In this document: piece after piece, positions 3,641 through 56,974 of the stretch
Position numbering within the stretch: the first letter of the stretch is position 1
Layout of the letters: the number at the start of each line of letters is the position of its first letter
Assembly (NCBI RefSeq): GCF_000517085.1
Contig: NZ_KI912107.1
Location: 930,398 to 994,397, forward strand
DNA: 64,000 bases
Direction of reading: 5' to 3'
Source: Saccharicrinis fermentans DSM 9555 = JCM 21142
GTDB taxonomy: Bacteria; Bacteroidota; Bacteroidia; Bacteroidales; Marinilabiliaceae
Notes under the pieces: model-generated
Told to the model about the DNA's origin: nothing
The model's input: the letters and a program-made list of their open reading frames with translations, nothing else
The model's database searches: none
Position numbers and translations under genes: made by a program

Positions 3641-3730
3641 ATTATGAAACGTGCCTTGATAAAGTATTTCATACACAGGAGTATGATTAATATCGGCGAG
3701 TTCCATATGACTATTGAAAGAAAAATATGA
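3641..3730 (+). promoter_or_regulatory. repeated structured 5' leader, copy A (before GH2 operon)
   Basis: TATGAAAC (3643-3650), an internal GT/GA mismatch, and GCC pair with GGC-GA-GTTCCATA downstream. Between them CATAC (3670-3674) pairs with GTATG (3681-3685) around an AGGA-containing loop. A 15-codon ORF runs from ATG 3683 to TGA 3730 (MINIGEFHMTIERKI), and its stop overlaps the GH2 start at 3727 as ATGA. It shares sequence and layout with copies at 15961, 24861, 29575 and 56881. Confidence 0.75.
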
Positions 3731-6186
3731 ACATGAAACAATATTTATTTATGCTTGCCATAATGCTTGGCACAAGCCTGATGGCGCGCGACAAGGTTCC
3801 TTTCGATTCTAATTGGAAATTTGCCCGTTTTGGTTCCATGCCGGATGGTTCGTTTAAAAGAGAACACAAGGATATTGATGAAATAGATTATGATGACTCT
3901 TCGTGGCGTGTGTTGGATGTACCTCATGATTGGGGTATTGAAGGACCTTTCCGTTCCGACCTGCCTAACCAAACGGGTAAACTGCCTTGGGCTGGTATTG
4001 GTTGGTATCGCAAAGTGTTTGAATCCCCGGAATCTGATCAGGGTAAACGTGTTTTTGTGGAGTTTGATGGTGCTATGTCGGGTACGCAAATTTGGCTCAA
4101 TGGATGTTATGTTGGTGAATGGCCGTATGGTTATACATCTTTTCAAATGGAGCTTACAAAATACCTTAAGGTGGGACAGAAGAATACCATAGCTGTGCGT
4201 CTTGATAATAAGGAGCATTCATCTCGTTGGTATCCGGGAGGCGGGATATATCGCCATGTACGCTTGGTGAAAACAAACCCTATAAAAATTGAACATTGGG
4301 GTGTGTTTGTGACCACTCCTGATGTTTCAAAGGAAAAAGCGACCGTAAATATTTCCACCGAGATTGATGGAGACACCGAGGGATTGGTTATTCACCAGGA
4401 AATTTTTGTCCCAGGTGACCCCCTTATTAAAGTTGCTGAGAAAAAATCTTTCAAGGGAGAGCTTTGTTCTGTAGACATCATAAAACCCAAACTTTGGGAT
4501 CTTAACAACCCTAATTTATATGTGCTTAAAACATCATTGATAAAAGATGGGGAAGTGATAGATGAGCTAGACAATACATTCGGGGTTCGATCAATAGCGT
4601 ATACTGCACAAGGTTTTTATTTGAATGGCGAGAAGGTGCGCATGAATGGGGTTTGCATGCATCACGACTTGGGGCCCTTGGGCACAGCCGTCAATGTTCG
4701 TGCTATGGAACGTCAAATTGAAATACTAAAAAGTTTTGGAACAAATGCTATTCGTACTGCGCATAATCCTCCTGCACCTGAGTTTCTTGATTTGTGCGAT
4801 CGTATGGGTATACTTGTTCAAGTAGAGTCCTTTGATGTTTGGCAAAAACAAAAAGTGGAGAATGACTATTCTACTCTGTTCGGAGCATGGCATGAACGCG
4901 ATCTAAGAGCCATGGTACGACGCGATCGTAATCATCCCAGTGTAGTGATGTGGAGTACTGGTAATGAAATGATTGAATTGCGTAGTGGTAATGATGCACC
5001 TATGGCTGTAAGGTTGGCTGATATTATTCGTTCTGAAGATGCAACACGACCTACTACTTTTGGTTGTAGTCGTCCCGAAGCTATTTCTAATGGCTTTGAA
5101 CACACAGCGGATGTATTTGGCCTGAATTATAAACCACATTTATACCAGGAACTTCGCGATGCTAAACCAGATCTTCCTATTTATGGTAGTGAAACGGCTT
5201 CGACAGTTAGTTCAAGAGGTGAATATTTCTTTCCTGTTTCTGAGGATAAAAGAAAAGGCTCCGGCGGATATTTCCAGGTGAGCAGTTATGACTTTTCCGC
5301 ACCAAACTGGGCTTACCGACCAGAAGTAGAATGGGAGTCATTAGACAAAAATCCATGGGTTTTGGGTGAGTTTGTATGGACGGGTTTTGATTATATTGGG
5401 GAGCCTACTCCTTATAATAAAGACAAGACAAATCTTCTGAATTTTAGCGATCCAGCCGAAAAAGCAAAAATGGAAGCTGAATTGAAAAAAATGGGAAACC
5501 AAATTCCTCCGCGAAGTTCGTATTTTGGTATAGTAGACCTGTGTGGTTTTCCTAAAGATCGATATTATTTGTATCAATCGCGGTGGTTGCCTGATGTACC
5601 AATGGTACATATCTTACCCCATTGGAATTGGCCCGAGAGAGTAGGTAAAGTGACGCCTGTTTTTGTGTATACTTCTGGTGACGAGGCAGAATTGTTTCTC
5701 AATGGAAAATCCTTGGGGCGTAAAAAGAAAGCTAATTTTGAGTATCGTTTGCGTTGGGATGATGTCATTTATCAACCAGGGGAGCTTGAAGTGGTTGCTT
5801 ACAAAGGTGGTAAGCTGTGGGCGAAGAGTAAGGTTCAAACAACCCAAGATGCCGCTAAGCTTTCTCTTGAAGCAGATAGAACAATGATAGCTGCCGATGG
5901 ACAAGACTTGTCTTTTGTTACAGTAAGGGTATTGGATAAATCGGGTTTAATGGTTCCAAGAACGCATAACTCGGTTAAATACACCCTATCTGGACCAGGT
6001 GAAATTATCGCTGTGGGTAATGGAAATCCTACCAGTCACGAATCATTTCAGGCAACTCAACGAAAGGTTTTTAATGGTATGGCATTGGTTGTTATACGTT
6101 CAAAGAAAGGTGAATCGGGTAAAATAAAGTTGATCGCAGAATCTGATGGTTTAAGAAAAGCTGAACGAATAATCAGAGCAAAATAG
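3727..6186 (+). CDS. GH2 family glycoside hydrolase (beta-galactosidase-like, DUF4982 type)
   Basis: This 819-residue protein has an N-terminal signal peptide (about 1-20) and the usual GH2 order: sugar-binding jelly roll (about 25-185, with RWYPGGGIYRHV), Ig-like domain (190-290), and TIM barrel (290-590). A DUF4982 domain (about 610-710, HILPHWNWPE and FLNGKSLG) and a GH2 C-terminal Ig-like domain (about 715-819) follow. The acid/base is Glu414 in STGNEM; the probable nucleophile is Glu489 in YGSETAS. The block normally reading MDEAFDxW is altered to VESFDVW. It should release terminal beta-linked galactose or a modified galactose from galactan oligosaccharides in the periplasm. It opens a five-gene operon with two sulfatases, a GH82-like protein and a second GH2. 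ATG 3727 overlaps the leader ORF stop; ATG 3733 is an alternative start. Confidence 0.9.
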   Translation: MNMKQYLFMLAIMLGTSLMARDKVPFDSNWKFARFGSMPDGSFKREHKDIDEIDYDDSSWRVLDVPHDWGIEGPFRSDLPNQTGKLPWAGIGWYRKVFESPESDQGKRVFVEFDGAMSGTQIWLNGCYVGEWPYGYTSFQMELTKYLKVGQKNTIAVRLDNKEHSSRWYPGGGIYRHVRLVKTNPIKIEHWGVFVTTPDVSKEKATVNISTEIDGDTEGLVIHQEIFVPGDPLIKVAEKKSFKGELCSVDIIKPKLWDLNNPNLYVLKTSLIKDGEVIDELDNTFGVRSIAYTAQGFYLNGEKVRMNGVCMHHDLGPLGTAVNVRAMERQIEILKSFGTNAIRTAHNPPAPEFLDLCDRMGILVQVESFDVWQKQKVENDYSTLFGAWHERDLRAMVRRDRNHPSVVMWSTGNEMIELRSGNDAPMAVRLADIIRSEDATRPTTFGCSRPEAISNGFEHTADVFGLNYKPHLYQELRDAKPDLPIYGSETASTVSSRGEYFFPVSEDKRKGSGGYFQVSSYDFSAPNWAYRPEVEWESLDKNPWVLGEFVWTGFDYIGEPTPYNKDKTNLLNFSDPAEKAKMEAELKKMGNQIPPRSSYFGIVDLCGFPKDRYYLYQSRWLPDVPMVHILPHWNWPERVGKVTPVFVYTSGDEAELFLNGKSLGRKKKANFEYRLRWDDVIYQPGELEVVAYKGGKLWAKSKVQTTQDAAKLSLEADRTMIAADGQDLSFVTVRVLDKSGLMVPRTHNSVKYTLSGPGEIIAVGNGNPTSHESFQATQRKVFNGMALVVIRSKKGESGKIKLIAESDGLRKAERIIRAK

Positions 6187-6259
6187 CTAGAGGTATTGGA
6201 TGTTACATGATAATGTGCACCATAAGGCTGTTGAGGATTATTTATTAAAACGATTTTTT

Positions 6260-7708
6260 ATGAAAAAGTATATGTATATTCTTGCTTTATTTTTCGCCTG
6301 TAGCTCCATATATGCCAGGAAAAAGCAGCCTAACTTACTTATCATTCATACCGATGAGCATAGTTTTAGAACCCTGAGCTGTTACCAAAAATTGATGCCA
6401 GAAAATCAGGCTTTTGTATGGGGAAAGGGAAATAATGTTCAAACTCCATATATTGACAGAATTGCTAATGAGGGGGCCATATGTATGAATTATTACGCCT
6501 CTTCTCCGGTTTGTACGCCATCACGTGCATCATTGGTCACAGGTTTATATCCTCAGGCAACAGGAGCTCCTAAAAATGGAATGAGTATTCGCCAAGATGT
6601 TCAAACATTTGCTCAAGTATTGTCTGAAGCGGGTTATGCAACATCTTATGTGGGTAAGTGGCATCTTGATGGTCATCGTAAGTATAAATTTGATATAGCG
6701 TATAATGCAGGTTTTGATGATAATAGGTATATGATGACTGGAGGTCATGCGCCTTATTTTCAGATTAATAATGAGGTAATAATTGCTTTAGGACAACGCC
6801 AAGCTCAAAGAATGCAGAGTAATGGAGAACAAGATATTACGTATGTAACCGATTTCTTTACTGACAAAACATTGGAAATACTGGAGCGAGATAAGGATAA
6901 ACCTTTTTGTGTAATGTTATCTATTCCGGATCCGCATACCCCAGATGTTGCCCGTGAACCTTATGTTAGTATGTATAAAGAGATGCCCGTTCGTGCACCT
7001 TTTACCATGTCGCCGGAGTATACAGAAAAAAAACCACAATGGGGTAGAGGGGGACGTGATGATAAAAATGAAGTTAAACAGTTTAATCCGGATGCACTTC
7101 GTAATTATTTTGGTATGGTAAAGTGTATTGATGATAACGTGGGACGTATTCTTAAATTTTTGGATGATAATGATTTAACAGATAATACCATTGTTGTTTT
7201 TACTGCCGATCATGGAGATATGTTTTTTGAACATAATCGACTCAACAAGGGCGTGCCTTACGAAGCTTCATCTCGTATTCCATTTGTCATAAGGTATCCC
7301 CGCGAAATTGTGCCTGGTAAGGTTATCCGTAAAGCTTATACAAATGTAGACTTTGCACCAACCATCTTGAGTTTAATGCATGTAAATAACTCTTTGAAAT
7401 GTCATGGTACGGATACTTCGACAGACTTTTTGAGCAATGATAGAGAAGTGTCTGGTGAACGTATTACATATTTTGCAAAAAATGGTGGTTGGTGGGTATG
7501 CGCGGTGAATCGTCATTACAAATTGATACTTGACAAAAAAGAGAAACCATGGTTGATCGATTTAGATAAGGATCCATTTGAAACCACAAATTATTATTAT
7601 CATTCAGATTATAAGGATATTGCAAAGTTATTTCAAAAAGAGTTGTATGTTTTGATGAAGAAATTTGATGAGCCCGGATTAAAAACACAGCCTTATATAA
7701 CAGAGTAA
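6260..7708 (+). CDS. S1 family sulfatase
   Basis: I start at ATG 6260 (MKKYMYILALFF...) rather than the upstream ATG at 6200, because only the downstream start gives a clean export signal. The product is 482 residues. A metal-binding segment (LLIIHTDEHS) follows the signal, the formylglycine motif C-T-P-S-R begins at Cys85, GKWHLDG follows, and TADHGD supplies the second metal cluster. LIDLDKDPFE near the end is typical of the sulfatase C-terminal subdomain. TDEHS replaces the more common ADD at the metal site; its last Asp/Glu pattern still offers ligands. It is third-party independent of the ATP pool and needs a maturase to convert Cys85, which is not encoded here. It lies between GH2 and the GH82-like gene, so a role in desulfating carrageenan fragments is inferred. 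The exact sulfate position is unknown. Confidence 0.88.
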   Translation: MKKYMYILALFFACSSIYARKKQPNLLIIHTDEHSFRTLSCYQKLMPENQAFVWGKGNNVQTPYIDRIANEGAICMNYYASSPVCTPSRASLVTGLYPQATGAPKNGMSIRQDVQTFAQVLSEAGYATSYVGKWHLDGHRKYKFDIAYNAGFDDNRYMMTGGHAPYFQINNEVIIALGQRQAQRMQSNGEQDITYVTDFFTDKTLEILERDKDKPFCVMLSIPDPHTPDVAREPYVSMYKEMPVRAPFTMSPEYTEKKPQWGRGGRDDKNEVKQFNPDALRNYFGMVKCIDDNVGRILKFLDDNDLTDNTIVVFTADHGDMFFEHNRLNKGVPYEASSRIPFVIRYPREIVPGKVIRKAYTNVDFAPTILSLMHVNNSLKCHGTDTSTDFLSNDREVSGERITYFAKNGGWWVCAVNRHYKLILDKKEKPWLIDLDKDPFETTNYYYHSDYKDIAKLFQKELYVLMKKFDEPGLKTQPYITE

Positions 7709-7760
7709 AGGAGATCGTGAAAAATGTAGGCATAGGTATGTTAGAATGTATCTAATAAAA

Positions 7761-7783
7761 CATAGAACTATGATCGTCTTGGC
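7761..7783 (+). repeat. possible decayed fragment of the leader repeat
   Basis: CATAGAACTATG (a hairpin) followed by ATCGTCTTGGC resembles the inner hairpin and the start of the 3' strand of the leader copies (compare 24896-24918 and 56914-56937). The 5' strand and the rest are absent. The short match could be chance. Confidence 0.25.
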
Positions 7784-7809
7784 ACATTAAAACTTAAAAA
7801 AATATCAAA

Positions 7810-9087
7810 ATGAATTTCATATTCAATTATTTTAAAGCTAAATACATTTGTTCTGCGCGTCTTTGTGCAGTGTGTTTTTTAAATTATATACTTTTAGTTG
7901 GTATAACAGCGCAAAACACAAAAGAATCTGATTTTTATACCGAGACGAACCACCTGGGTGTAGTAAAAAACTTTGTGAATGACTATGGTGGTAATGGAAA
8001 CGATGCCTTAGATGATAGTGAAAAGCTTCAAGAGGCCATTGATGAACTCTCATCTTTAAAAAATGGAGGAAAAATAATTTTTCCTTCAGGAACTTATTAT
8101 TTGGCTGAAATTCAGCTGCGATCTAACGTTCATCTTGTGATTGATAGAGAAACAACAATAATCCCTGTTCAACGTCAAAATCAAAAAAATTATAAAATTT
8201 TTCAGCTTGATGGACAAAATGAAATTATAAAGAATGTTAGTATTCGTGGAGTGGGAGGCGCATTTAAAGTAGATTTAAGAAATCTAAAGAATAAAAATGT
8301 TGGCGTCTTTTCCTGTGGTAATGTTGAAAATTTTCTTATCGCAAATTTTCATGTACTGGATGATTACACTAAGTTTTCAGCAGTAACTTTTGGTGTTTCA
8401 GCGTTTAAAGGTGGGTATAACTATGCTTCCAGGGGCGTTATAAAAAATGCGAGTATAAAGAATGCTAATTATGGATATGGTCTTATTCAAACCCAAGCTG
8501 CACGTGATATATTGTTTGAAAATATTTCTGGATCAGGAGGTGTTACCTTGCGGTTTGAAACAGGATATGATAAGATGAATAAACTACAGGTAGGGGGTGT
8601 TTTTAATATGGTGGCCAGAAATGTTTCTTGTGAAAATGGGAATGCTGCTTTAATGATATCTCCTCATTCGATGCATAATGGAAGCGTTAATGTGGATGGA
8701 GTATATGCTAAAAACTGTGGTTTTGCTGTGCGGATAGAAAAAGGTTATGTTAAAAAAGGATTGAAGTCTTTAAATCTTGTGCCAGGTATATATGAGCCTT
8801 CTGAAGTAAAAAATGTGACTGCAATTTATGGTAATTCAGCTCAACTTAAATCAAAGCATTTTAAATATATGCGATGTCATTTAAGAAATCTAATTACCGT
8901 GGATGCCAATCACACTCTCGAAAAAATATATAGCGGACCGTCTATTGCCGCTGTTTTGAATGGAGCAGAAGGTGAAGGTAAAGGAAAGTTTTTAGTAAAA
9001 GTTAGTAATGTTTCTTCCTCGGGATTTACCGAAGACCAAAAAGATATTTTGTATGAAGAGGATACATACCTTTGTTCTGAAAATTAA
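7810..9087 (+). CDS. right-handed beta-helix enzyme, GH82-like (iota-carrageenase type)
   Basis: The protein has 425 residues and an N-terminal hydrophobic export signal (about 15-35). A pectate-lyase-3-like start (VVKNFVNDYGGNGND, LDDSEKLQEAID, GGKIIFPSGTYYL) leads into repeating beta-helix coils to about residue 400. The GH82 enzyme of Alteromonas fortis is, from memory, built on Gln222, Glu245, Asp247 and His281. This protein has Gln227, Glu250 and His286 with exactly the same spacing (23 and 36), but Gly252 stands where Asp247 would be; Asp254 is nearby. This fits a divergent GH82 cleaving iota-carrageenan or a relative, with a changed base. A GH28-like or other beta-helix hydrolase remains possible. 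Its place between two sulfatases in a GH2 operon supports a galactan substrate. Confidence 0.6.
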   Translation: MNFIFNYFKAKYICSARLCAVCFLNYILLVGITAQNTKESDFYTETNHLGVVKNFVNDYGGNGNDALDDSEKLQEAIDELSSLKNGGKIIFPSGTYYLAEIQLRSNVHLVIDRETTIIPVQRQNQKNYKIFQLDGQNEIIKNVSIRGVGGAFKVDLRNLKNKNVGVFSCGNVENFLIANFHVLDDYTKFSAVTFGVSAFKGGYNYASRGVIKNASIKNANYGYGLIQTQAARDILFENISGSGGVTLRFETGYDKMNKLQVGGVFNMVARNVSCENGNAALMISPHSMHNGSVNVDGVYAKNCGFAVRIEKGYVKKGLKSLNLVPGIYEPSEVKNVTAIYGNSAQLKSKHFKYMRCHLRNLITVDANHTLEKIYSGPSIAAVLNGAEGEGKGKFLVKVSNVSSSGFTEDQKDILYEEDTYLCSEN

Positions 9088-9136
9088 AAAGCAATGGTAA
9101 GTGAGCTTCTTTTTTTTAACTATAAATTATATAAAA

Positions 9137-10594: not shown

Positions 10595-10631
10595 ATGAGA
10601 ATATTTACTTATCTATTAGTTTGAGGTTTAT

Positions 10632-14034: not shown

Positions 14035-14080
14035 ATATGTGTGAATCAAAAGTTAATAAAGATAATATTTGACTAATGTT

Positions 14081-14125: not shown

Positions 14126-14153
14126 ATAAACAATAATTTAAACTTTGGTAAAA

Positions 14154-15716: not shown

Positions 15717-15730
15717 TTTAAGGGTGTTAA

Positions 15731-15799: not shown

Positions 15800-15960
15800 C
15801 TTTATTTGTTCTTGATGCTTTTTGTCTTTATGTACCCATAAAAACAATTAATTTACTCTCAGGTATATATTCTTTTTCCAGGTAAGCTACATTTATTAGT
15901 TGAAATCAAACCGTGTTTATACAATGCTTAAAAAAATAGCGATCACTTTATAATAATCTA

Positions 15961-16060
15961 CATATGAAACGAGCCACGGGAACGTGTTCCACACACATAC
16001 AGGAGTATGATTGATTTTGGCGAGTTCTATGTGACCTTTGAAAAGATAAATTAGAGTATA
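15961..16060 (+). promoter_or_regulatory. repeated structured 5' leader, copy B (before FAD oxidoreductase operon)
   Basis: CATATGAAAC-GA-GCC at 15961-15975 pairs with GGC-GA-GTTCTATGTG at 16019-16034, using G-U and U-G pairs in place of some Watson-Crick pairs of other copies. The inner hairpin is CATAC-AGGA-GTATG (15996-16009). A 15-codon ORF runs from ATG 16007 to TAG 16054 (MIDFGEFYVTFEKIN), ending 5 bases before the gene start. Confidence 0.75.
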
Positions 16061-17976
16061 TGAAAAGAAGAGATTTTTTTAGAAAGGGAGCCAAAGGTGT
16101 TGCTGGAGCTAGCTTACTTTCTATTGCAGGTCCTGTTTCTGCAAGAGATTTAGGGAGAAATGACCGATCAAAAGATAATTGGTATCAGGTGGCAACTGGT
16201 AATATGGGAATTCCGCAGAGACAGCAAACGGTAAAATGCGATGTGCTGGTTGTTGGTGGTGGTATGGCTGGCATTTCAGCGGCCGTATCTTCTGCACGAA
16301 ATGGAGTTAAAACGATATTAATTCAGGATCGGCCCGTGTTGGGAGGTAATGCATCCAGTGAAATGCGTATTACTGTTAATGGTGCTCCTCAAGAAAGGGA
16401 AACAGGTATTGTTGAAGAAATTCTCATTGAAAATTGGGTTCATAACAAGCAGCAATCTTATCCAGTGTGGGATCATGTGCTATATAACTATGTTACGCGT
16501 CAACCGAATCTGCAATTAATACTTAATACACAGGCTGTTGATGTGCTTTTGAATGATAATGTAATAAAAGCAGTTAAATGTTGGGGTTTGACGAATGAAA
16601 CAGAGACTACCATTTATGCAAAACAGTTTATTGATTGCTCAGGGGATGGTTTAATGGCAGCTATGACGGGTGCTGAATATCGAACGGGACGTGAAGGTAA
16701 GGATGAATTTGGTGAGTCATATGCGCCTGATCGTCCGGATGGATGGACTATGGGGGATTGTATCATGATGATTACGAAAGATATGGGGCGACCCATGCCA
16801 TTTAAAGCACCTGATTATGCCATTCCTTTCGACCACGAAACCGCGTTTAAAGACAAGCACCGACGTATTAAGCAGGTTAAAGAAGGATTTTGGTGGATTG
16901 AAGTGGGCGATGATTTTGATATTATTGGTCATCGTGAGGATATTAGACATAAATTAATGGCTTATTTTTATGGTGTTTGGGATTATATAAAAAATTCGGG
17001 TAATTATCCTGAAGCCGAAAATATTGCTCTAGATTGGGTGGGATCTATCCCCGGACGACGTGAGTCACGTCGCTTTGTGGGAGACTATATGCTTACACAA
17101 AATGATATTTTAAAGTGTCGCCACTTTAAAGATGCAATTGGTTTTGGGGGGTGGTCTTTGGATGAGCATAACCCTGGAGGTGTCGAAAATATGACTGAAC
17201 CTGCAAGTTATTTTCATGCAAGAAGTGCTGAAGTTTATGAGATACCGTATGGTATTTTGTATTCCAAGAATATCTCAAATCTTTCTTTTGCAGGAAGAAA
17301 TGCAAGCTTAACACATATTGCTCTTTCTTCCACGCGCGTTATGGCTACTTGCTCTTTAATGGGACAGGCTGTAGGAACGGGTGCTTCTATCTGTGTTAAA
17401 AAGGAAATTAACCCGCGAGAATTACGTACCAAATATATGGATGACTTGCAAGAACAGTTATTGCGCGACGATGTATTTATACCTAAGCGGCCGGCTATGG
17501 ATAAAAGAGATTTGGCACGTACCGCAGATTTAATGGTGGGTTCGTCTACGCTTTCAGGTGACGTTCAGTTGTTGATAGATGGTGTGTCTCGTGATAGAGA
17601 TAACGAAGTGCATCATTGGGAGACAGATGGATTACCTGCCCAGTTGCAATTGGAATGGAAAGTGCCAGTGAACATATCCAAAGTAGAAATGAAAGGTGAT
17701 ACCAATGTACATCGTCATTTGATGATGCATAAAAATCCAGACAAATATATACAAAAAAAACAGCTATTAGATGTTCCTCCCGAATTAATAAAAAAGCTTA
17801 GAATTGAAGTTCGTGATCAGGGTAAATGGGTTGAGGTGTCAAACATAGAGGAGAATATTACGCGTTCTATTAAAACAACCTTTGCACAGGTGAAAACTTC
17901 GGCTGTTCGCATTACCTTGTTGGATACTTGGGGGTATGAAAATGCTAAGTTATTTGAAGTGAGATGTTATTCGTAA
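16060..17976 (+). CDS. Tat-exported FAD-dependent oxidoreductase
   Basis: The 638-residue protein begins with a twin-arginine signal (MKRRDFFRKG, then a hydrophobic stretch to about 28), so it should be folded with cofactor before export. The FAD-binding Rossmann motif VVGGGMAG lies at 64-71, followed by VLGGNASSEMR, as in the FAD_oxidored family (PF12831). A second dinucleotide-contact block is near the middle (DCSGDGLMA). The final 130 residues look like a discoidin/F5-8C-type galactose-binding domain (HHWETDGLPA, NISKVEMKGD, VRITLLDTWG). The substrate is unknown; the binding domain and the operon suggest a sugar or oligosaccharide. Its stop overlaps the next gene as TAATG. A paralogue with the same layout is at 42374. 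Not seen: any membrane electron-transfer partner. Confidence 0.85.
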   Translation: MKRRDFFRKGAKGVAGASLLSIAGPVSARDLGRNDRSKDNWYQVATGNMGIPQRQQTVKCDVLVVGGGMAGISAAVSSARNGVKTILIQDRPVLGGNASSEMRITVNGAPQERETGIVEEILIENWVHNKQQSYPVWDHVLYNYVTRQPNLQLILNTQAVDVLLNDNVIKAVKCWGLTNETETTIYAKQFIDCSGDGLMAAMTGAEYRTGREGKDEFGESYAPDRPDGWTMGDCIMMITKDMGRPMPFKAPDYAIPFDHETAFKDKHRRIKQVKEGFWWIEVGDDFDIIGHREDIRHKLMAYFYGVWDYIKNSGNYPEAENIALDWVGSIPGRRESRRFVGDYMLTQNDILKCRHFKDAIGFGGWSLDEHNPGGVENMTEPASYFHARSAEVYEIPYGILYSKNISNLSFAGRNASLTHIALSSTRVMATCSLMGQAVGTGASICVKKEINPRELRTKYMDDLQEQLLRDDVFIPKRPAMDKRDLARTADLMVGSSTLSGDVQLLIDGVSRDRDNEVHHWETDGLPAQLQLEWKVPVNISKVEMKGDTNVHRHLMMHKNPDKYIQKKQLLDVPPELIKKLRIEVRDQGKWVEVSNIEENITRSIKTTFAQVKTSAVRITLLDTWGYENAKLFEVRCYS

Positions 17977-21260: not shown

Positions 21261-21334
21261 ATGGTTCATACCAAACTTAAATACTAGGATCTTATATACC
21301 TGCCGTATAATTTTTGAAAAATAAATATAATCAT

Positions 21335-22468
21335 ATGAAAGTTACATCAATAGAAAGTTTTATTCTTTCTGACACATTGAAGGAAAGCTTTTATTTCTCG
21401 CAATGGGAGTACTGTGAACGACAAATTTGTATTGTAAAAATCACTTGTGATGATGGACATGTGGGCTGGGGTGAAGGTTATGGTCCCGCGAAATTGGTGA
21501 AAGCCGGAATTGAACACTTGACTCCTTATGTGTTGGGTCAAAATCCTTTGCAGACCGAAACGATTTGGAGTATTATGTATCGGAGAACCTTGGATTTTGC
21601 GCGTCGAGGTATCTTGGTTTCGGCCATGAGTGCTATTGATGTGGCTCTTTGGGATCTAAAAGGAAAAATATGTGATCAACCTGTTCATTTGTTGTTGGGA
21701 GGTAAAAAACGTGATGTTATTTTGCCGTATGCTACAGGTATGTACTATTCTAATTGCGATAATTTGGGACAGAAACTAGCCAATGAGGCAAAAGAATATG
21801 CAGACTTAGGATACAAGGCTATGAAAATGAAAGTGGGACTAGGAATAGAGGAGGATATTGAGTACGTTAGGATGGTTCGTGAGGCCATTGGACCCGATGT
21901 GGCACTTATGATTGATGCCAACCATGCGTATTGTTTGCGAGAGGCTGTTCAACTGGCAAATGCCGTAGAAAAATACAATATAGCTTGGTTTGAAGAGCCA
22001 ATATCGCCCGAATACTATGAGCAATATGCCGAATTGCGTAGTAAGACTACTATTCCAATTGCAGGAGGAGAATGTGAATATTTGCGTTACGGTTTTCAAA
22101 CCTTGTTAAAATCAAATTCAGTAGATATTATTCAACCCGATATTTGTGCAACAGGAGGATTAACAGAGGCCAAACGTATTGCTGTTTTAGCTTCGGTATA
22201 TGGAGTTGAGGTTGTTACGCATACCTGGGGTACAGGTATCGCTATTTCTGCTGCCTTGCATTTTGTAAGTAATTTGGATAGTATCCCAGGACGTTTGAAA
22301 ATGCCGTATAATCAGATAGAATATGATCGGACAGAGAATGGTCTCCGAGAAGAGCTTACCACAACAAAAATGGTTGAGAAAAATGGTGAAATCATTGTTT
22401 CTGATGATCCAGGACTCGGATTTGAATTAAATGAAGATGTGTTATGTAAATATCTTTTAAAAGAATAG
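21335..22468 (+). CDS. dauB: enolase-superfamily cycloisomerase (3,6-anhydro-D-galactonate cycloisomerase type)
   Basis: I start at ATG 21335 (MKVTSIESFIL) rather than 21314. This 377-residue protein has the mandelate racemase-like layout: capping domain, then barrel. The Lys-x-Lys general base motif is K164-M-K166. Metal ligands are Asp194 (MIDANH), Glu220 (WFEEP) and Glu246 (GGECE), and the second base is His296 (THTWGTG). In carrageenan users an enzyme of this family opens 3,6-anhydro-D-galactonate to 2-keto-3-deoxy-D-galactonate. The neighbouring dehydrogenase, kinase and aldolase complete that route, which is the main ground for the specific name. The symbol follows the Zobellia naming from memory. 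The next gene starts four bases after the stop. Confidence 0.8.
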   Translation: MKVTSIESFILSDTLKESFYFSQWEYCERQICIVKITCDDGHVGWGEGYGPAKLVKAGIEHLTPYVLGQNPLQTETIWSIMYRRTLDFARRGILVSAMSAIDVALWDLKGKICDQPVHLLLGGKKRDVILPYATGMYYSNCDNLGQKLANEAKEYADLGYKAMKMKVGLGIEEDIEYVRMVREAIGPDVALMIDANHAYCLREAVQLANAVEKYNIAWFEEPISPEYYEQYAELRSKTTIPIAGGECEYLRYGFQTLLKSNSVDIIQPDICATGGLTEAKRIAVLASVYGVEVVTHTWGTGIAISAALHFVSNLDSIPGRLKMPYNQIEYDRTENGLREELTTTKMVEKNGEIIVSDDPGLGFELNEDVLCKYLLKE

Positions 22469-24713: not shown

Positions 24714-24860
24714 ACTCATGTGGATTTGTTTGGTTTCTGACAAAAATTCTAAGTCTTGTGCCATTTATTGAATTAGTGAGACAAGTATGTTAGAGAACCT
24801 TCATCCAAAGATGAATAATTTTTATAGGAAATTGTATAAGACCATTGTGAATGATTTTTG

Positions 24861-24955
24861 TGCATATAAAACGACCATAATAAAGCATTTATCATACAGG
24901 GGGATGATTCGTTTTGGCAAGTTTCATATGACCATTGAAAGAAAAATTTAAACAC

Positions 24956-24956
<1 letters not shown>
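24861..24956 (+). promoter_or_regulatory. repeated structured 5' leader, copy C (before kinase-LacZ operon)
   Basis: GATTTTTG at 24853-24860 resembles a -7 box directly before the element, so the transcript would begin at its 5' stem. CATATAAAAC-GA-CC pairs with GGC-AA-GTTTCATATG. A 15-codon ORF runs from ATG 24904 to TAA 24951 (MIRFGKFHMTIERKI), followed by the shared tail AAACACATGAA that contains the gene start. Confidence 0.75.
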
Positions 24957-29294
<4,338 letters not shown>

Positions 29295-29487: not shown

Positions 29488-29574
29488 TGGATCCTGAGTT
29501 ACCAAGGGTAGGTGATAAATGATTGCATTTTAAAAAAAAGAGAATAATACTTTTATATGTTAATTATTTGTGAT

Positions 29575-29667
29575 AGATAAAACGAGCCGTGGGAATTGTT
29601 TGGCACACAGGGGAATGATTAATACTGGTGAGTTCCGTGGGGCCATTGAATGATAATTTTAAACACA
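29575..29667 (+). promoter_or_regulatory. repeated structured 5' leader, copy D (before AraC gene), partly decayed
   Basis: A TTATTTG box at 29564-29570 lies just ahead. ATAAAAC-GA-GCC faces GGT-GA-GTTCCGTG, with a weaker outer stem than the other copies. The small ORF starts at ATG 29615 (MINTGEFRGAIE) but stops early at TGA 29651-29653. The TTTTAAACACATGAAA tail is kept. Confidence 0.65.
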
Positions 29668-30524
29668 TGAAACTAATACTGAAAAATACCGATAGCTTTA
29701 AAAATGAGCGGATTGATATTACCAAAAAAGAAATACCATGTTTAGATTCTTCGTGGCATTATCATGCTCAGTTTGAACTGTTATATATTTCTAAAAGTAA
29801 TGGTATTCGTTTTGTGGGTGATAGTGTTTCTCATTTTTTCCCGGGTGATTTAGTATTGGTAGGACCTTATCTACCTCATCTATGGCGTAACGATTCGTCG
29901 TATTATAAACAAGAAGAGACGAATAAAGTAAAAACTATTATTATAAAGTTTTCTAAAGATTTTATAGGAGAAAATACATTTAATTTACCTGAGTTTTCCA
30001 AAATCAATCAATTGTTGGAAAAATCTAAATTTGGAGTGAGTTTTGGTAAAGATGTGAGTAGGATGTTGCATAACGAATTGCTGTGTATCATTGATTTGAC
30101 GCCGGCAGAACAATCTGTGAAACTTTTAGACATTCTTTGCCGCTTGTCTCTTACTGAAGAAAAAAGGACTTTATCTTCAGCCGATATGCGTCAATATACC
30201 ACGGAGAATTCTCCTCGTTTGGATGAGGTTATCAAGTATATCTCTAATAATTATTTTAAAGATATTAGCTTGAAAGATGTATCTGATGTAGCCTGTATGA
30301 CTACCAATTCATTTTGTCGTTTTTTTAAAAAAATGACCAATAAATCATATGTGCAATTTCTGAATGAAGTTCGTATTCGTAACGCTTCTCGTTTATTGGT
30401 TCAAGAAGAAATAACAATATCAGATGTTTGTTATCGGGTAGGATATAAGTCTGTTACTAATTTTAACAAGCAGTTTAAGCAAATTGTAGGTTGCACGCCT
30501 AACACTTACCGTACTAAATTGTAA
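29667..30524 (+). CDS. AraC-family transcriptional regulator with cupin sensor domain
   Basis: I start at ATG 29667 (MKLILKNTDSFKNE); the frame open from 29628 covers the leader. The 285-residue cytoplasmic protein has an N-terminal cupin-like domain (SSWHYHAQFELLYI, FFPGDLVLVGPYLPHLW) that probably senses a sugar. Its C-terminal AraC-type domain has two helix-turn-helix units: ISLKDVSDVACMTTNSFCRF, then TISDVCYRVGYKSVTNFNKQFK in outline. It is the only regulator in the window and lies centrally among the operons, so it is the best candidate to read the AGGT(T)AA boxes or the ACCCAT repeats at 47054. Its own upstream region has two AGGTTAAT boxes, suggesting autoregulation. Confidence 0.9.
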   Translation: MKLILKNTDSFKNERIDITKKEIPCLDSSWHYHAQFELLYISKSNGIRFVGDSVSHFFPGDLVLVGPYLPHLWRNDSSYYKQEETNKVKTIIIKFSKDFIGENTFNLPEFSKINQLLEKSKFGVSFGKDVSRMLHNELLCIIDLTPAEQSVKLLDILCRLSLTEEKRTLSSADMRQYTTENSPRLDEVIKYISNNYFKDISLKDVSDVACMTTNSFCRFFKKMTNKSYVQFLNEVRIRNASRLLVQEEITISDVCYRVGYKSVTNFNKQFKQIVGCTPNTYRTKL

Positions 30525-35980: not shown

Positions 35981-36255
35981 GTGTGCGCCGAGTTGAAAGA
36001 AAGCGCTAGCGATTGGCTAGGGCGTTGTGAGCACTACAAATCTGAAAGAAGCCATTAGTAAAGTTGAAGTATTGGCGCACAGAAATCTGATATAAGGCTT
36101 ACTTGGTGGGGCAACCGAGCCATAGAATGGGAACGCCCAAATATTAACCGTAATACCATAAAGTAAATCAGGCAGTACGCAACGAAAGAATATTATCTTA
36201 TTTCGTGTGGTCTCAACAGGGCGAGGGGGTAATTCCTTTACCTACTCGATTTTGC
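35981..36255 (+). mobile_element. probable group II intron fragment (domain I only)
   Basis: GTGTGCGCC at 35981-35989 is like a group II intron 5' end (GUGYG) and pairs with GGCGCAC at 36074-36080. AAATCTGATATAAGG and GAATGGGAACG resemble conserved domain I stretches of the Lactococcus Ll.LtrB intron as I remember it. No reverse transcriptase gene and no clear domain V are present, so this is a remnant. A CGAG...CTCG hairpin lies near its end (36219-36247). Confidence 0.5.
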
Positions 36256-44487: not shown

Positions 44488-44512
44488 CATAACTAATTAT
44501 TACTAAAAAATC

Positions 44513-47153: not shown

Positions 47154-47154
47154 T

Positions 47155-49047: not shown

Positions 49048-49208
49048 ATGAGTAGGGTGTTTTGATTCATCAGAATGGGATACAGGTGGGTAACTCATTT
49101 TTATTGGAGAGTTTTATCTGTTGTGAGGATGAATGTAGACAGTGTTGAGCAAACTTAAATCAAATGGAGAACAATAAAATGCACTTTAAATCTAAAATCT
49201 AATTAATA

Positions 49209-52200: not shown

Positions 52201-52349
52201 TTTATGTAACGGCTCAAAATCCACTTACGTTTACTGATTATTCTGGGTATGATCCGGAAGTGGGTGGTAATGTGAAGAGTAGGGGTGTGGATAAAGGAAA
52301 CTACCCGGTTACTTCTCTGTATACTGTTGGCGTAAATCTTAACTTCTAA
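49209..52349 (+). CDS. susC: SusC-type TonB-dependent transporter 2
   Basis: The 1046-residue protein has a signal peptide (about 1-32, ending IQAQ) and a carboxypeptidase-D-like domain (VTGTVVSSADGLGIPGVSV, about 38-110). The plug opens with LDEVVAIGYGSVKKKELTGA, and the 22-strand barrel ends with TVGVNLNF. It is very similar to SusC3 at 60740 throughout, including the barrel end (GYDPEVGGNV, DKGNYPVTSLY), which marks a recent duplication. Its SusD partner starts 11 bases downstream. No AGGTTAA box was found in front of it. Confidence 0.95.
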   Translation: MKQYKMLKFSQTMARYLFLTIILMMTWSIQAQEKNMMVTGTVVSSADGLGIPGVSVVIKGTMLGTITDMDGNYSLKAEMGDVFQFSFIGMESTEKEVRGKIVDVSMKPDVVSLDEVVAIGYGSVKKKELTGAVAQVKSEDISRVVTSDFGAALQGLVAGVNVTANSGAPGENSNILIRGVSSISGSNTPLFVVDGVPQEGDPRLSTNEIETIDILKDAASAAIYGTRGAAGVILITTKQGEAGSLRVRVNSSYGVEDIRSGTPVMNAVEQTYADFLYHRNLNGTNYTDINLSTLRTSESFQNNTDLGSLVFIDYAPVQEHSINVSGGTKDISYNVIAGYFNKEGVIVNSGFERFNTRANTTYRHGKWRINANVGLTQEKKKSSPGGIITQTIKYHPTMNMIDVDSDEALNTSHSFESNRVNWVMDSFRNTDVNHRTSAFANFNINLELIKDLNLSTRIGNSFTNDYRHRFSPYQEVYDVDGELVGDPSTNSYVWDLSSRRTALTLDAGLTYQKKFDKHKLTVFLGQSVEKYVYDSFEAKKTAVSNNEIDRLDGAVSNPYASSMDNDYVNKLIGSIGRIQYDYKSKYLLSASIRRDGSSKFGSDNRWGIFPSASLGWNVSDEGFWQGIKEVANNFKLRASYGTVGNQSFDPYTYSAGITPGINYIFTSQNADGGQNNSLVNGYVQTEFANGDVKWETSIQTNIGMDIAFFNNKLTFTAEYYNTNKKDMLMPIQLPGSTGNIPNVNMHNPKSSVVVLNVGDMTNQGLEFAMGYRTKTGRVSWGVNGTFSTNKNEVTKVNGMGGFTLLDDGGLISGKKSVSQVTAIAEGYEAGAFFLRPTNGIVDSHEKLAEYQNIRPDARMGDLIYKDTNGDGLISDLDRVYSGSGLVEYEVGLNAQASFKGFDFSMQWYSAIGHEIMNGAKATAYGWGRHKDLLYQWSEANPTSSIPSYKGEPNKHFNYEGHSDLWLEDGTYLRLKEITLGYTLPQVSTRGWGIDKCRFYVTAQNPLTFTDYSGYDPEVGGNVKSRGVDKGNYPVTSLYTVGVNLNF

Positions 52350-52360
52350 ATCTATTTATC

Positions 52361-54112
52361 ATGACATATAAATTATTTAAATATTTAGCACTCGTTGTTG
52401 TTCTTGCTCTTACAGTGTCGTGCAACGATTGGTTAGAAGAAACAAATCCGAATCAGTCTGATAGTGATTCGTACTGGAAAAATTTGACACAAACAGATGG
52501 TACTTTAATTGCAACTTATGGTAGTTTATTTAATCATGGAGTGTTAAATATTCGTGAAGAAGCTTGGCGTTCAGATATGGGTTTTCCAGGCTACGGACGC
52601 CCCTCATATAGTGGTGATGGCGTTGTTTGGTATAATCAAATTTATACCAATACCAATACGTATATCACTAAAAAGTGGGAATCGCTTTACCTTGGTATTT
52701 TTCGGGCTAATCAGGTTATTGATGGTCTAAAAGGACTAGAGGGATCGGTTGATAATGAGGAATGGGAGGAGCAAATGGCACAAGCTCGCTTTTTAAGAGG
52801 GCTTTTCCATTTTTACTTGCATTCGTCATTTAATAAGGGAAATATAATTATCAGGGACTTTGTGCCGAAAACCACAGCTGAGTATAATATTCCTGTATCA
52901 GCTTCGGCCGAGGTAATCGCATTTTTCAGGTCTGATTTACGTTATGCATATGAACATTTGCCAGTGAGTTGGGCAGATGAGGGAGAGATAGGTAGAGCTA
53001 CCAAAGGTGCCGCAGCAACCATCTTGGGAACTAGTTTTTTATATGAAAATGAAATTGACTCTGCGATCGTTAAATTTGAGGATGTGGTGAATAATGTGTC
53101 TGCAAAATATGGATATGAATTGGTTCAAGACCCTTCGCTTTTATTTACAACTGCTGGTGAATTTAATAAGGAGTCTATTTTTGAAATAGCTTATTCTAAT
53201 GAGTTTAGTCCAGAATATAATACTTGGGTGGAAGATCGTACTACTAACCGACTGGCAGCCGATAGCTATGCAAATACATCGTCTTCTTTTTTTCCTTCTT
53301 GTTGGATTACGTGGGAGTATTTAAATGAACCAATGGACAGTAAAGATAGTCGGAATTATTATCTCTCCGATCCTGAAGATCCGGCTAGTGAGACTTTACG
53401 TGATGTGCCACTAAGAGCTTCTTCTATGATCGCTTTAATTCAAGATGAGCAGTCGTCTTATTACGGCAAGAAAGTATGGGAGAAAGCAACTTTTAACATA
53501 CAAAATGGATTCGCACGTTATAAAAAATACACGAATCATGACCTGTTAACAGATGAAAATGATAATCCCGGAGGACGAAACCACTCAGGGAAAAACGTAA
53601 CGGTTAACCGTTTGGGAGATGTTTATCTGATGTTGGCCGAATGTTACATTAAAAAAGATGATGTAAAAAGCGCTTTAGATTTGATAAACGCTGTACGTAG
53701 CAGGTGGGGCCTTCAACTTATAGGATTGAGTAATGGTGATACGGAGCATGAATATAATGAGGTTTCTTATGATGCGCAATCGTTGATGGAGCGATTAATG
53801 AATATTGAAAAGCCGCTGGAAACATCAGTTGAAGGGCATGCCATCCGATGGTTTGATCTTAGACGATGGGGGAAATTAGAGGAAAACTTTAAAAAGAAAG
53901 CAAACGAAGTATATTGGTCTGATCATTATACACCTAAAGATCAAACAAAAACAAAATGGAACAGTACGCTTACCGCAATCGATCCAGGAGATAGTAATAG
54001 ACAGGTATATAAGGATTATGAGCAGGCAGCCATGAATTTCAACTATGAATTACATGCCTGGTTACCTATTCCTGCAACTGAGGAAGTGAGCAATCCGAAT
54101 TTATACAAATAA
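52361..54112 (+). CDS. susD: SusD-type surface glycan-binding lipoprotein 2
   Basis: A 583-residue RagB/SusD lipoprotein; the lipidation Cys follows LALTVSC near residue 21. ARFLRGLFHFYLHSSF and the C-terminal IRWFDLRRWGKLEENF and HAWLPIPATEEVSNPN blocks fit the family. It belongs with SusC2. Its start (NDWLEETNPNQSDSDSYW) is close to the partial SusD3 at 63874, so the pairs were copied together. Confidence 0.94.
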   Translation: MTYKLFKYLALVVVLALTVSCNDWLEETNPNQSDSDSYWKNLTQTDGTLIATYGSLFNHGVLNIREEAWRSDMGFPGYGRPSYSGDGVVWYNQIYTNTNTYITKKWESLYLGIFRANQVIDGLKGLEGSVDNEEWEEQMAQARFLRGLFHFYLHSSFNKGNIIIRDFVPKTTAEYNIPVSASAEVIAFFRSDLRYAYEHLPVSWADEGEIGRATKGAAATILGTSFLYENEIDSAIVKFEDVVNNVSAKYGYELVQDPSLLFTTAGEFNKESIFEIAYSNEFSPEYNTWVEDRTTNRLAADSYANTSSSFFPSCWITWEYLNEPMDSKDSRNYYLSDPEDPASETLRDVPLRASSMIALIQDEQSSYYGKKVWEKATFNIQNGFARYKKYTNHDLLTDENDNPGGRNHSGKNVTVNRLGDVYLMLAECYIKKDDVKSALDLINAVRSRWGLQLIGLSNGDTEHEYNEVSYDAQSLMERLMNIEKPLETSVEGHAIRWFDLRRWGKLEENFKKKANEVYWSDHYTPKDQTKTKWNSTLTAIDPGDSNRQVYKDYEQAAMNFNYELHAWLPIPATEEVSNPNLYK

Positions 54113-54134
54113 TAGATAATTAAAGCATAATTCA

Positions 54135-55796
54135 ATGAAAAAATTAAACATATTATTACCGCTTTTTGCCTTGTTATTTGTGGTAGCATGCGATGAAGAT
54201 GATTATGTAGCACCAGGTACGGTTACCGATGTTGCTTGGTACACCAGCGAAAAAAATAATGGAGATTATAAGTTAAATCAGGGCGATTATATGTCTTTTG
54301 TGGATTTATCTCAAGGTTATGAAAGTCATGAATGGAGTATTGAAACTGGGAACTACTTTTTGAAGGCAGGTTTTAGTCAGTATGATTCTTTGCCTTTGTT
54401 TATTGATCAAGAAAAAGGATTTGTTACTGACGATGCTACTGTTCATATTCTCTTTAATAAAGCGGGAATTAATAAGGTGCGTTTGTATAATACTTTTAAT
54501 CAAAAAGTTGTTTTTAACGGATCTGAACCTTTTGAGGTAGTGAATAAAGACGGTGTTTGGGTGATTGATACTACTTTTTTGGTTGATGTATATGGTGATG
54601 TCTTGCCAGCTTTTAAAGTTTATCAATTAGTGGAAGACTATGATGGTAATATTATTGAGGAAAAAGAGGTTTGTAGTATTACTGAAACGGATATGCCAGA
54701 TGCAGATAAAGCTGAGACTTGGCCAAGTATAGATGTGGAAATGGGAGGACGTCTTAAATTTGTAGATTTAACCACTAAAGATAGACCTACAGGTAGGATT
54801 TGGACTGTATTTAACCAGCAAAAATCGACTACGTCAAATGACTCTGTAGCAATTGTTTATTTTAATACATTGGGGTATACAACAGCCAAGGGGGTTGGAT
54901 CTATTAAAGCAGAAAGGGTGAGTGATGATGAATTGCCAAGTGCCTCAGCTGTAAAAGTGATACCTTTTAATGTTAATGTGATAGCATCTGCTAAACCTTT
55001 TGTATATACTGGTAATATTAAGGAGAATGAAGATGAATCTATCATCATGAATGTGTCTGGTGAAATGAAATCTTTTTCAGGTGTTGAAGATGCTTTTACG
55101 GTGCATGTGTTGAATGCTGCATCTGGCTTTGAAGAAAATATAGCAGCGGCTAAAGCAGAAGTAAATCCCGAAGATGCTACATCTATTAAACTAAAGCTTA
55201 GTGAGGCGATCTATAATTCTGATCAAGTATATGTTTCTTATGATAATACGAAGGGTGCTATTTTGCGTGCTGATGATAAAATATTAGAGAACTTTGGCCC
55301 AGTTGGGGTAGATATGTATACTCAAAATTTTGCGGATGTTGATTTTTATGGAGCAGAAGCCGGAGGTGATGGTTGGTTTATTCAGCATGCCAATCAATGG
55401 TTTATTAATACCGAAAAGTCTTCTTCAGGGAGTTATGGTTTTAAATATGTTTATGACACAGCTAGTAGTCCTGGAAATAATGCTAAAATTCAAAGCACTG
55501 CACCGAATGTTTTTGGTGTAGAGGAAGGTGAATATCTAATGAGTCTCGAGGTATGGATGGAAGAAAGTTCAAATATTGCGTTTTTACGTACTAACCTATC
55601 TACTCCCGATTGGTTACCTTTGACATGGGATTTATCTTCTATTGAAAAAGGTAAATGGGTAAGACTAACTCAGCAAATTTCTTTGGGGGATCATAGTAAA
55701 TTTATATTTCAAATTAACAAGGCGGATGTGCTTGGCGATAACGCTATTATGTATATTGATGATATTGAGTTTACTAAATTAGAAATGAGGCCTTAA
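54135..55796 (+). CDS. surface glycan-binding lipoprotein (SGBP)
   Basis: A 553-residue lipoprotein with the signal MKKLNILLPLFALLFVVAC. Several Ig-like or PKD-like beta-domains follow (about 25-390); SFVDLSQG and LKFVDLTT look like repeats of one fold. The last 155 residues resemble a CBM4/9-type carbohydrate-binding sandwich (GWFIQHANQWFINTEKSS, then YIDDIEFTKLE). No catalytic motif is seen. As the gene after SusD2 it should be a surface glycan-binding protein handing substrate to the transporter. The partial protein at the left edge may be of a similar class. Confidence 0.75.
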   Translation: MKKLNILLPLFALLFVVACDEDDYVAPGTVTDVAWYTSEKNNGDYKLNQGDYMSFVDLSQGYESHEWSIETGNYFLKAGFSQYDSLPLFIDQEKGFVTDDATVHILFNKAGINKVRLYNTFNQKVVFNGSEPFEVVNKDGVWVIDTTFLVDVYGDVLPAFKVYQLVEDYDGNIIEEKEVCSITETDMPDADKAETWPSIDVEMGGRLKFVDLTTKDRPTGRIWTVFNQQKSTTSNDSVAIVYFNTLGYTTAKGVGSIKAERVSDDELPSASAVKVIPFNVNVIASAKPFVYTGNIKENEDESIIMNVSGEMKSFSGVEDAFTVHVLNAASGFEENIAAAKAEVNPEDATSIKLKLSEAIYNSDQVYVSYDNTKGAILRADDKILENFGPVGVDMYTQNFADVDFYGAEAGGDGWFIQHANQWFINTEKSSSGSYGFKYVYDTASSPGNNAKIQSTAPNVFGVEEGEYLMSLEVWMEESSNIAFLRTNLSTPDWLPLTWDLSSIEKGKWVRLTQQISLGDHSKFIFQINKADVLGDNAIMYIDDIEFTKLEMRP

Positions 55797-55905
55797 TTCA
55801 AAAATTAGTGATTTAATGATGCTGGTAGTTTATTTATACTCTTTGCTATTGGCTTGGTTCAGATGGCCTTAAAAATAAATTATAAACAAATGAAAATTAT
55901 AACGT

Positions 55906-56355
55906 ATGAAAAATTTACTAAATATATTGACCGTGGTTGGTTTTGTAATGTTATTAGGAGGATGTGATGAATCGGAATGGCCCGAATCTAGCGTTAAACT
56001 AGTTCCTGTGTATTCAGCAACGGATATAGATGGTGAGGGTGCGCCCTTCGCCTTAGAAATATATCAAGAAAAGCCATTGTTGATTGAATATGTTAATGCC
56101 AATATACTCAATAGTTTTAGTTATTACGATTTTGTAGATAAATCTTCATCGACTCGTTTTGACTTGAGCTATGCTATTCAACGACCAGCTATTACAGATG
56201 CTGGTAAGGATACTTTAATAACAAATGTTTATAGGTTATTTGGTCTGAAAAATGATTTGAAACCTGATACCCTTTGGTATGGAGTGGCTATTTCTGTGGA
56301 TACTACCTATAGTGAATTTTATACTACTATAGAAGAAAAACAAGTTTATAATTAG
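55906..56355 (+). CDS. small lipoprotein, unknown function
   Basis: The 149-residue protein has a lipoprotein signal (VMLLGGC, Cys20) and then a single beta-rich domain. I do not recognise a family. It lies 109 bases after the SGBP gene and is the last gene of the SusCD2 operon, so a role in surface glycan binding or complex assembly is plausible. No other clues are visible. Confidence 0.7.
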   Translation: MKNLLNILTVVGFVMLLGGCDESEWPESSVKLVPVYSATDIDGEGAPFALEIYQEKPLLIEYVNANILNSFSYYDFVDKSSSTRFDLSYAIQRPAITDAGKDTLITNVYRLFGLKNDLKPDTLWYGVAISVDTTYSEFYTTIEEKQVYN

Positions 56356-56549
56356 TCTTTGCAAGAAAACTCCAAATACTGCGTTATTCTCATTTTTGAA
56401 ACAGTCGCTTACCATCAGTAAACTCCTTGGTTTCAAAAATATCGAAAGCCTTGTCTTTGAAGCTTTCTTATCAAAGCTAGAAAACGACTGTTTTTTCTGG
56501 CAATGACTAATTTAGCGTGTACACAAAAAAAATTATTAAACCCTGCAAG

Positions 56550-56590
56550 ATGCATTAGAACTTCATAATAGATTTTCTAATGCATTTTTC
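56550..56590 (+). repeat. extragenic hairpin element, copy 2
   Basis: ATGCATTAGAA and TTCTAATGCAT form an 11-bp perfect palindrome around a 14-base loop containing AATAGATT, followed by TTTTTC. It shares its core with 455-500. Confidence 0.5.
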
Positions 56591-56600
56591 TGGTTAAAAG

Positions 56601-56628
56601 GAGGCTGCCTGTAGGCGGTCTTTTTTTT
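56601..56628 (+). terminator. terminator before the sulfatase pair
   Basis: GGCTGCC and GGCGGTC pair (with G-U) around a TGTA-like loop, followed by eight T. Confidence 0.82.
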
Positions 56629-56880
56629 GTTCGAAGTGTTGTGCAAGGTATATTATTTTTTATTACGTGTTGAAATAAAAGGTTCATCGACACTATTTAT
56701 GCTTGTTACCTAAAGATAGGATTACTCCTTCTTTGCATCATAGATGATGTTGGTTGTGATGCTATTAATAAAGTAGTTAAAATCTTATTATAATGGGTTA
56801 ATTTTGATGATGTCGGAACTGTATAAAGAGTGTTAATTTGTTCGTTGCATATGACGTATTTATATGTTGAAATATTAGGA

Positions 56881-56974
56881 TATGTGAAACGAGCCATGAT
56901 AAAAAACTTCACACATAGAATTATGAATAATATGGCGAGTTTCATGTGGCCATTGAAAATTAAATTTAAACACA
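56881..56974 (+). promoter_or_regulatory. repeated structured 5' leader, copy E (before sulfatase pair)
   Basis: TATGTGAAAC-GA-GCC (56881-56895) pairs with GGC-GA-GTTTCATGTG (56935-56949), the best stem of all copies. The inner hairpin is CATA-GAAT-TATG. One base fewer after the ATG breaks the small ORF frame seen in copies A-C, while the stem is kept. The TTTAAACACATGAAA tail is present. Confidence 0.75.

Follow-up and report, generated by a model that had tools for sequence, protein, structure and literature searches.

The leaders of many genes in Saccharicrinis fermentans DSM 9555 carry a short structured repeat, five copies of which (A to E) lie in the window analyzed here, a 64,000-nucleotide stretch of contig NZ_KI912107.1 (positions 930,398 to 994,397). 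We conclude, with a probability of roughly 80%, that this leader repeat is a family of gene-less mobile DNA units that insert at GAAA and at start codons and rebuild the start codon. Movement of the unit is shown by filled and empty sites with precise ends. The unit measures about 85-100 bp; as its junctions show, it begins after GAAA and ends in GAAA, with insertion taking place 3' of a GAAA that usually belongs to the ATGAAA opening a gene, in which case the unit lies in the sense direction. Its 5' end reads CGAGCC (TGCCC or TCGAGC in distant genomes) and its 3' end CANATGAAA, so that ATGAAA remains as the start of the host gene; the ATGAAA to the left of the unit is host sequence, and ATG stands before AAAC in 109 of 144 parsed copies.

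An earlier reading of the window, made from the sequence alone (the sequence-only reading), had described the five copies as a structured leader repeated within one locus, possibly a riboswitch, an mRNA stabilizer or a protein-binding leader linking the regulon of a polysaccharide utilization locus (PUL). The copies exist, are related and lie where that reading had placed them, each ending at the start codon of the gene it named. A covariance model scores them at 83.0-89.5 bits, all on the + strand, and since they are among the 32 sequences of that model (R1; B and E as L014 and L015) the scores express kinship, not independence:

3650..3738, + strand: unit copy A, before the GH2 gene (88.8 bits at 3637-3742)
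15970..16065, + strand: unit copy B, before the FAD oxidoreductase gene (83.0 bits at 15957-16067)
24872..24961, + strand: unit copy C, before the PfkB-family kinase gene (88.0 bits at 24859-24963)
29583..29672, + strand: unit copy D, before the AraC-family regulator gene (89.5 bits at 29570-29674)
56890..56979, + strand: unit copy E, before the sulfatase gene (87.4 bits at 56877-56981)

For copy A, the span opens with the base following the left ATGAAA and closes at the ATGAAA restored to the GH2 gene. The earlier observation was largely right and is weightier than its local interpretation, which took for a PUL riboswitch what we read as a start-codon-rebuilding mobile unit.

Filled and Empty Sites

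One line of evidence for mobility comes from a carrier repeat of about 170 bp that begins AGTGGCTGCAAGAAAACG and apparently represents the ends of a Y1 transposase element. In the DNA examined, six of these repeats are empty, six hold one unit and two hold two units. There is one exact junction, always GAAA^GC (the caret marks the junction): empty sites read CTTTRATAAGAAA^GCTTC and filled sites AAGAAA^CGA...CATATGAAA^GCTTC, with GAAA^ preceding the unit in all 8 filled of the 14 carrier repeats. A second case is provided by duplicated genes near 2.73 Mb that have a common old leader with the diagnostic CATATTACCATTGAAAG; one duplicate carries an extra unit of the near-identical S1 subfamily (see below) placed exactly between ATGAAA and TTG (ATGAAA^TTG). 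The third is leuB, which in this genome is preceded by a unit scoring 113 bits, while the model finds none before the 7 same-genus orthologues. This leuB copy lies ~180 nt behind the apparent end (by eye) of an upstream gene on the same strand, and the mRNA therefore need not begin with the fold, as the sequence-only reading had proposed.

Other sequences were seen at comparable positions. The same-genus leuB orthologues (L071-L077) carry other repeat-like sequences (AAGACAAAAGTATTAAGTATAAAGAC and others) in the short spacer before the ATG, and one of these loci, L072, holds a stretch upstream of leuB that, by eye, could be a decayed relative of the unit. Units behind TTGAAA or CTGAAA occur in similar-looking contexts at 660155, 2873929, 5598517 and 5899298 of G000, contexts that are probably another carrier repeat.

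Copies across the Genome and Phylum

A pattern for the 3' part of the unit (≤2 mismatches) gives 186 + 189 matches in the genome versus 65 + 49 for the reversed pattern, and R1 matches all 150 scored candidates, each with E < 1e-6; on these two grounds the copies are not chance similarities. The figure of 150 is a lower bound, being the scored subset of 5,519 first-look candidates. A strand bias, suspected at first listing, is ruled out by the 70 copies on the + and 80 on the - strand. We parsed 144 copies (6 were dropped; parsing anchors were set separately per analysis), and 97 of them end exactly at the start of an open reading frame. A further 22 run into another unit, 14 of the same type and 8 of a second type, 13 have an open reading frame start within 150 nt, and the remaining 12 have none within that distance, 4 of these lying inside the carrier repeat. 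Among 60 ATGAAA sites outside gene interiors in 124 kb of the genome, 28 are start codons and the other 32 include left flanks of units; measured against this background, the 97 of 144 indicates that start codons are over-represented among insertion sites.

The genes so preceded form no consistent class of regulated genes, as judged by Pfam for 10 genes (the five window genes included) and by eye for others: elsewhere in the genome they encode isocitrate/isopropylmalate dehydrogenase, adenylosuccinate lyase, rRNA dimethylase, aquaporin and Hsp20. The proposal of a leader linking the regulon of one locus does not survive at least 150 copies, unrelated genes, tandem units and filled and empty sites, and a regulon of one PUL is ruled out by the genome-wide spread of copies.

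Beyond this genome, R1 matches 24 of the 41 genomes in a set of relatives (own genome included), comprising 9/9 of the genus (own genome again included), 12/16 of other family members and 3/16 of others in the order. In a sample of the phylum, 7 of 198 genomes match; apart from our own, five belong to one other family of the class and one to another class. Scans of named genomes found the unit in at least one, Breznakibacter xylanolyticus (Marinilabiliaceae), and one further scan gave no match. No family of Rfam 15 is matched by the unit at gathering scores (for the window, also up to E=5). The sequence-only reading had called for a covariance model and for searches of Rfam and Bacteroidota, and what these return is a structured element with real covariation, outside the Rfam families and with copies in other genomes.

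Subfamilies and Tandem Arrays

Near-identical copies make up the S1 subfamily (29 of the 150 at a similarity score ≥0.9). Its 29-nt 5' block is matched without mismatch at 26 places in the genome and its 32-nt 3' block at 30; the reversed controls give 0. Nineteen of the 29 stand directly behind another unit or the end of one (the latter by a loose motif match), and in the nine tandem pairs with exactly one S1 member, the S1 unit is gene-proximal in 8. A second unit type, GAAA^CTGGCATGGCCAGCGCAAATAATT..GGTGAATGATT..TTAGTGAAGTTTCGCTAATTTTTAAACATATGAAA, has its core and both ends in common with the first and likewise precedes gene starts or further units (loci L013, L045, L087, L089, L097, L118, L129, L139, L141 and L144). 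Variant units with ~50 nt extra around GAAATA..CGTATTCATGAATAC, between the core and the 3' part, were seen at L025, L265 and L269.

Structure and Covariation

Helix statistics were computed on 63 copies from 16 other genomes. Three helices are backed by covariation. One is an inner hairpin, another joins the first base of the unit to an internal base, and the third, a 3' hairpin, forms between internal TTCCATNTG and terminal CANATGAA (CATNTG versus CANATG), the latter being the restored start codon. At the N position of the 3' hairpin we find G-C in 20 copies, C-G in 19, A-T in 17, G-T in 5 and no pair in 2; pairing is thus Watson-Crick in 56/63 (61/63 with G-U), compared with a mean of 39.1 under within-genome permutation, and 0 of 20,000 permutations reach 56. 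The unit's first base and the base before TTCC form C-G in 42 copies, T-A in 18 and other combinations in 3. The N position covaries within our genome too (Fisher p ~0.001 per variant, related copies not being independent), and window copy E carries the CATGTG/CACATG variant.

Taken jointly, the three helices reach a covariation score of 0.278, compared with 0.102 (standard deviation 0.010) for shuffles and at most 0.079 for slid versions. This alignment, A3, contains 55 of the 63 copies; of the 8 left out, 5 contained N, had a misplaced or cut left end or were >97% alike, and 3 of a long-hairpin type were removed by hand. Two-sided changes occur in 5 of 6 pairs of the inner hairpin and in 1 of 8 pairs of the 3' hairpin, whose remaining pairs are nearly invariant, and all 55 copies retain one A-C mismatch in the 3' hairpin. 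By inspection, the GA/GA step beside GCC/GGC turns up again in distant genomes, where the stems have changed.

The two helices of the sequence-only reading fare less well. Its inner CATAC-AGGA-GTATG hairpin is complete in A and B, but by eye only four pairs remain in E and three in C; across 32 copies of this genome neither register pairs above shuffles (63.1% versus 63.2%; 53.8% versus 53.8%), and no two-sided change is present in either. Single-sequence minimum-energy folds show its long outer stem in full and clearly in B and E, in part in A and C, and not at all in D. This stem covaries poorly: in this genome, change is confined to one side in 9 of its 13 pairs. With the unit starting only after GAAA and the left ATGAAA belonging to the host, the stem mixes host and unit, its outermost part being host DNA left of the unit; we rejected it as the main conserved helix for its weak covariation. 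In single-sequence folds that include the left flank, the left ATGAAA is paired; in folds from AAC onward, the 3' hairpin forms and the host start codon is paired. The internal strand can, in these models, pair with the ATGAAA left of the unit in place of the 3' end.

A covarying, conserved fold that lies mostly in sense orientation at start codons, and that holds the host start codon inside its 3' hairpin, is what would be expected of a cis-regulatory RNA leader (riboswitch, attenuator or protein-binding) kept by selection and spread by duplication of regulatory DNA. We consider this explanation very improbable, as it must contend with a non-genic carrier repeat that occurs both filled and empty, with tandem units and near-identical copies before unrelated genes, and with same-genus leuB orthologues that have no unit. 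The unit resembles the cis-regulatory leaders of Rfam in having a covarying fold next to a start codon; it differs in lacking an Rfam match, in being dispersed by insertion and in the unrelated genes downstream.

It is also conceivable, though we judge it unlikely, that the mobile unit now serves in addition as a translation device, in which ribosomes starting at the old start codon would pass through short frames overlapping at ATGA, open the 3' hairpin and use the restored start. The S1 unit has a suitable layout (copy 23063: MKRAMRVISHTGE and a stop, then ATGA, 8 codons, ATGA, 10 codons and an ATGA that is the gene start). In a relay test on 103 ATG-to-ATG copies of this genome, reduced to 58 representatives by 88% clustering and with the 63 copies of relatives left out, 46/58 reach the gene by close re-initiation and shuffles 17.1/58. 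The shuffles, however, also destroy ATGs that the fold needs, the other two frames give 42/58 and 53/58, so that the native frame is not favored, and the final spacing varies. A conserved small open reading frame in the unit was rejected on the same grounds, the signal (46, 42 and 53 of 58) not being frame-specific.

Mechanism and Alternatives

We hypothesize that the unit moves by the single-strand logic of IS200/IS605 elements, with an enzyme encoded elsewhere. Its internal strand would act as a guide recognizing both the cleavage sites and the target, and insertion at start codons would be tolerated because the unit supplies a start codon and an A-rich initiation region of its own. An effect on host gene expression is plausible from the arrangement of the sequence, and any such effect may be a by-product or a later use. 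The outline of IS608 in PMC5934647 describes guides that recognize cleavage sites by base pairing and a left-flank tetranucleotide that is the target. Like IS200/IS605 elements and their non-autonomous relatives, the unit inserts on the 3' side of a short invariant sequence that stays in its left flank, has hairpins and, by inspection, no inverted terminal repeats, and has an internal strand that pairs with its right end, where a guide role may be supposed by analogy with that account (PMC5934647). It differs in that one internal strand faces both ends, in that its target is a start codon, which it rebuilds, and in being ~90 bp long, without a gene and without a linked Y1 transposase in the loci examined.

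Several observations weigh against a mobile DNA unit of this kind or limit how far it is established. Because the carrier repeat is itself dispersed, its filled copies could descend from only two insertions; at least two are proven, not eight. No autonomous copy was found in the DNA examined, which is part of the genome, and no mobilizing enzyme was found, Y1 transposase and reverse transcriptase each being missing from some unit-bearing genomes. The Y1 family (PF01797) is absent from G014 (28 copies), G022 (41 copies; genome 76% complete) and G226 (2 copies), and where Y1 gene flanks were examined, a unit lay within them at 1 of 4 loci in this genome and at 2 of 30 and 1 of 17 others. The left flank and the internal strand do not covary: they match in 24/63 copies, a value that 2,753 of 20,000 permutations equal or exceed (15,715 of 20,000 within genomes), which counts against a retargeting guide because such a guide predicts covariation. 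Covariation alone cannot separate DNA from RNA structure. Finally, 14 of 41 S1 tails (≤3 mismatches) have no S1 5' block at the distance expected of it; in the six examined more closely, the tail is joined to another unit body in L193 and L194, to remnants of one in L195, and to sequence with little or no recognizable unit in L192, L196 and L197. S1 tails on other bodies would most simply reflect deletion between tandem units, with truncated copying as the alternative.

The enzyme question bears on a more specific version, that the unit is a relic of a repetitive extragenic palindromic (REP) element with its REP-associated tyrosine transposase (RAYT), or of IS200/IS605, mobilized by a Y1 (HUH) transposase that the same genomes encode. 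Y1 genes occur in 14/16 and 4/5 of the genomes tested (G005 is in both sets), there is no flanking duplication beyond GAAA, the left-flank sequence is fixed, and the guide-like pairing with the right end follows IS608 logic as PMC5934647 outlines it. We nevertheless rate this version as somewhat unlikely: G014, G022 and G226 have no Y1, few units lie near Y1 genes, and the RAYT-like genes that were read have other palindromes or the carrier repeat at their flanks. No cognate Y1 transposase flanked by the unit appeared among the part of the Y1 genes whose flanks were examined, and the unit closest to a Y1 gene, in L168, is diverged and lies somewhat over 100 nt upstream. The RAYT-like Y1 genes in L286, L288, L184 and L175 are flanked by short palindromes (for example, GCGAAGTTnnnAACTTCGC) of a different repeat family.

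The RAYT (TnpA-REP) family is outlined in PMC6006769 as including a Bacteroidetes subclass, 2.6, with atypical flanking structures, and the REPs of P. entomophila and S. wittichii, in the account available from PMC3733652, lie near the 3' ends of genes. As with REPs and REPINs, the unit is a high-copy, short, structured repeat between genes that has tandem forms; it differs in being oriented, in sitting at a start codon, in ends without a GTAG tag and in that no RAYT gene was seen flanked by it in the part of the Y1 loci examined. Miniature inverted-repeat transposable elements are likewise short, gene-less and multicopy, with empty and filled sites, but the unit has, by inspection, no terminal inverted repeats and brings an initiation region and a start codon. 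A literature search, judged by titles and the starts of abstracts and with most subscription papers outside its coverage, returned no paper describing the unit.

A mobile element acting at the RNA level, reverse-splicing into mRNAs at AUGAAA and being copied back into DNA, would account for the preference for start codons over other ATGAAA sites, for the gene-proximal position of young S1 units in 8/9 mixed tandem pairs and for an internal strand that can pair with both the left flank and the 3' end. The 14/41 S1 tails without the 5' block are also as expected of 5'-truncated copies, and because truncated copying could give S1 tails on other bodies, we retain this scheme, as a long shot. Reverse transcriptase (PF00078) is absent from G009 (54 copies), G180 (13), G022 (41) and G226 (2), and the ends are exact wherever both junctions are known. 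Each absent from some genomes with copies, neither Y1 transposase nor reverse transcriptase is supported as a universal partner.

Other Features of the Window

Beyond copies A to E, the window holds two likely or possible decayed units and an empty carrier repeat:

21291..21342, + strand: likely a decayed unit's 3' tail, ending CATATGAAA (32.3 bits, E 0.00025)
55827..55897, + strand: possible decayed unit with tail TTCAGATGGCC..AAACAAATGAAAA (22.6 bits, E 0.031)
56353..56480, - strand: carrier repeat without a unit, empty site CTTTGATAAGAAA^GCTTCAAAG, junction near 56463 (read as L015, - strand)

A match to group II intron domains D1-D4 (Rfam RF02001, 87 bits) lies at window positions 36025-36196, and the genome as a whole has 29 RVT_1 matches.

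Significance

Mobile DNA mostly avoids genes or breaks them. The family described here has established itself at the start codon, one of a gene's most sensitive places, and restores it; settling there may do little harm. In one genome the family has reshaped the leaders of some hundred genes or more, and the unit recurs in distant Bacteroidota, where it would confuse predictions of leaders, promoters and regulons.

We tentatively propose, at odds somewhat short of even, that the element addresses translation starts as such, its anti-start strand pairing with AUGAAA first as a target and then as the unit's own 3' end, and that units stack head to tail from promoter to gene, each a ready-made translational switch. 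Were this true, each insertion would leave the host gene a fresh start codon and initiation region, with an anti-start strand so placed that it could hide the old or the new start codon. Which enzyme moves the unit, and whether the addressed molecule is DNA or mRNA, are the questions that this raises for what would be a natural example of insertion possibly directed by base pairing.

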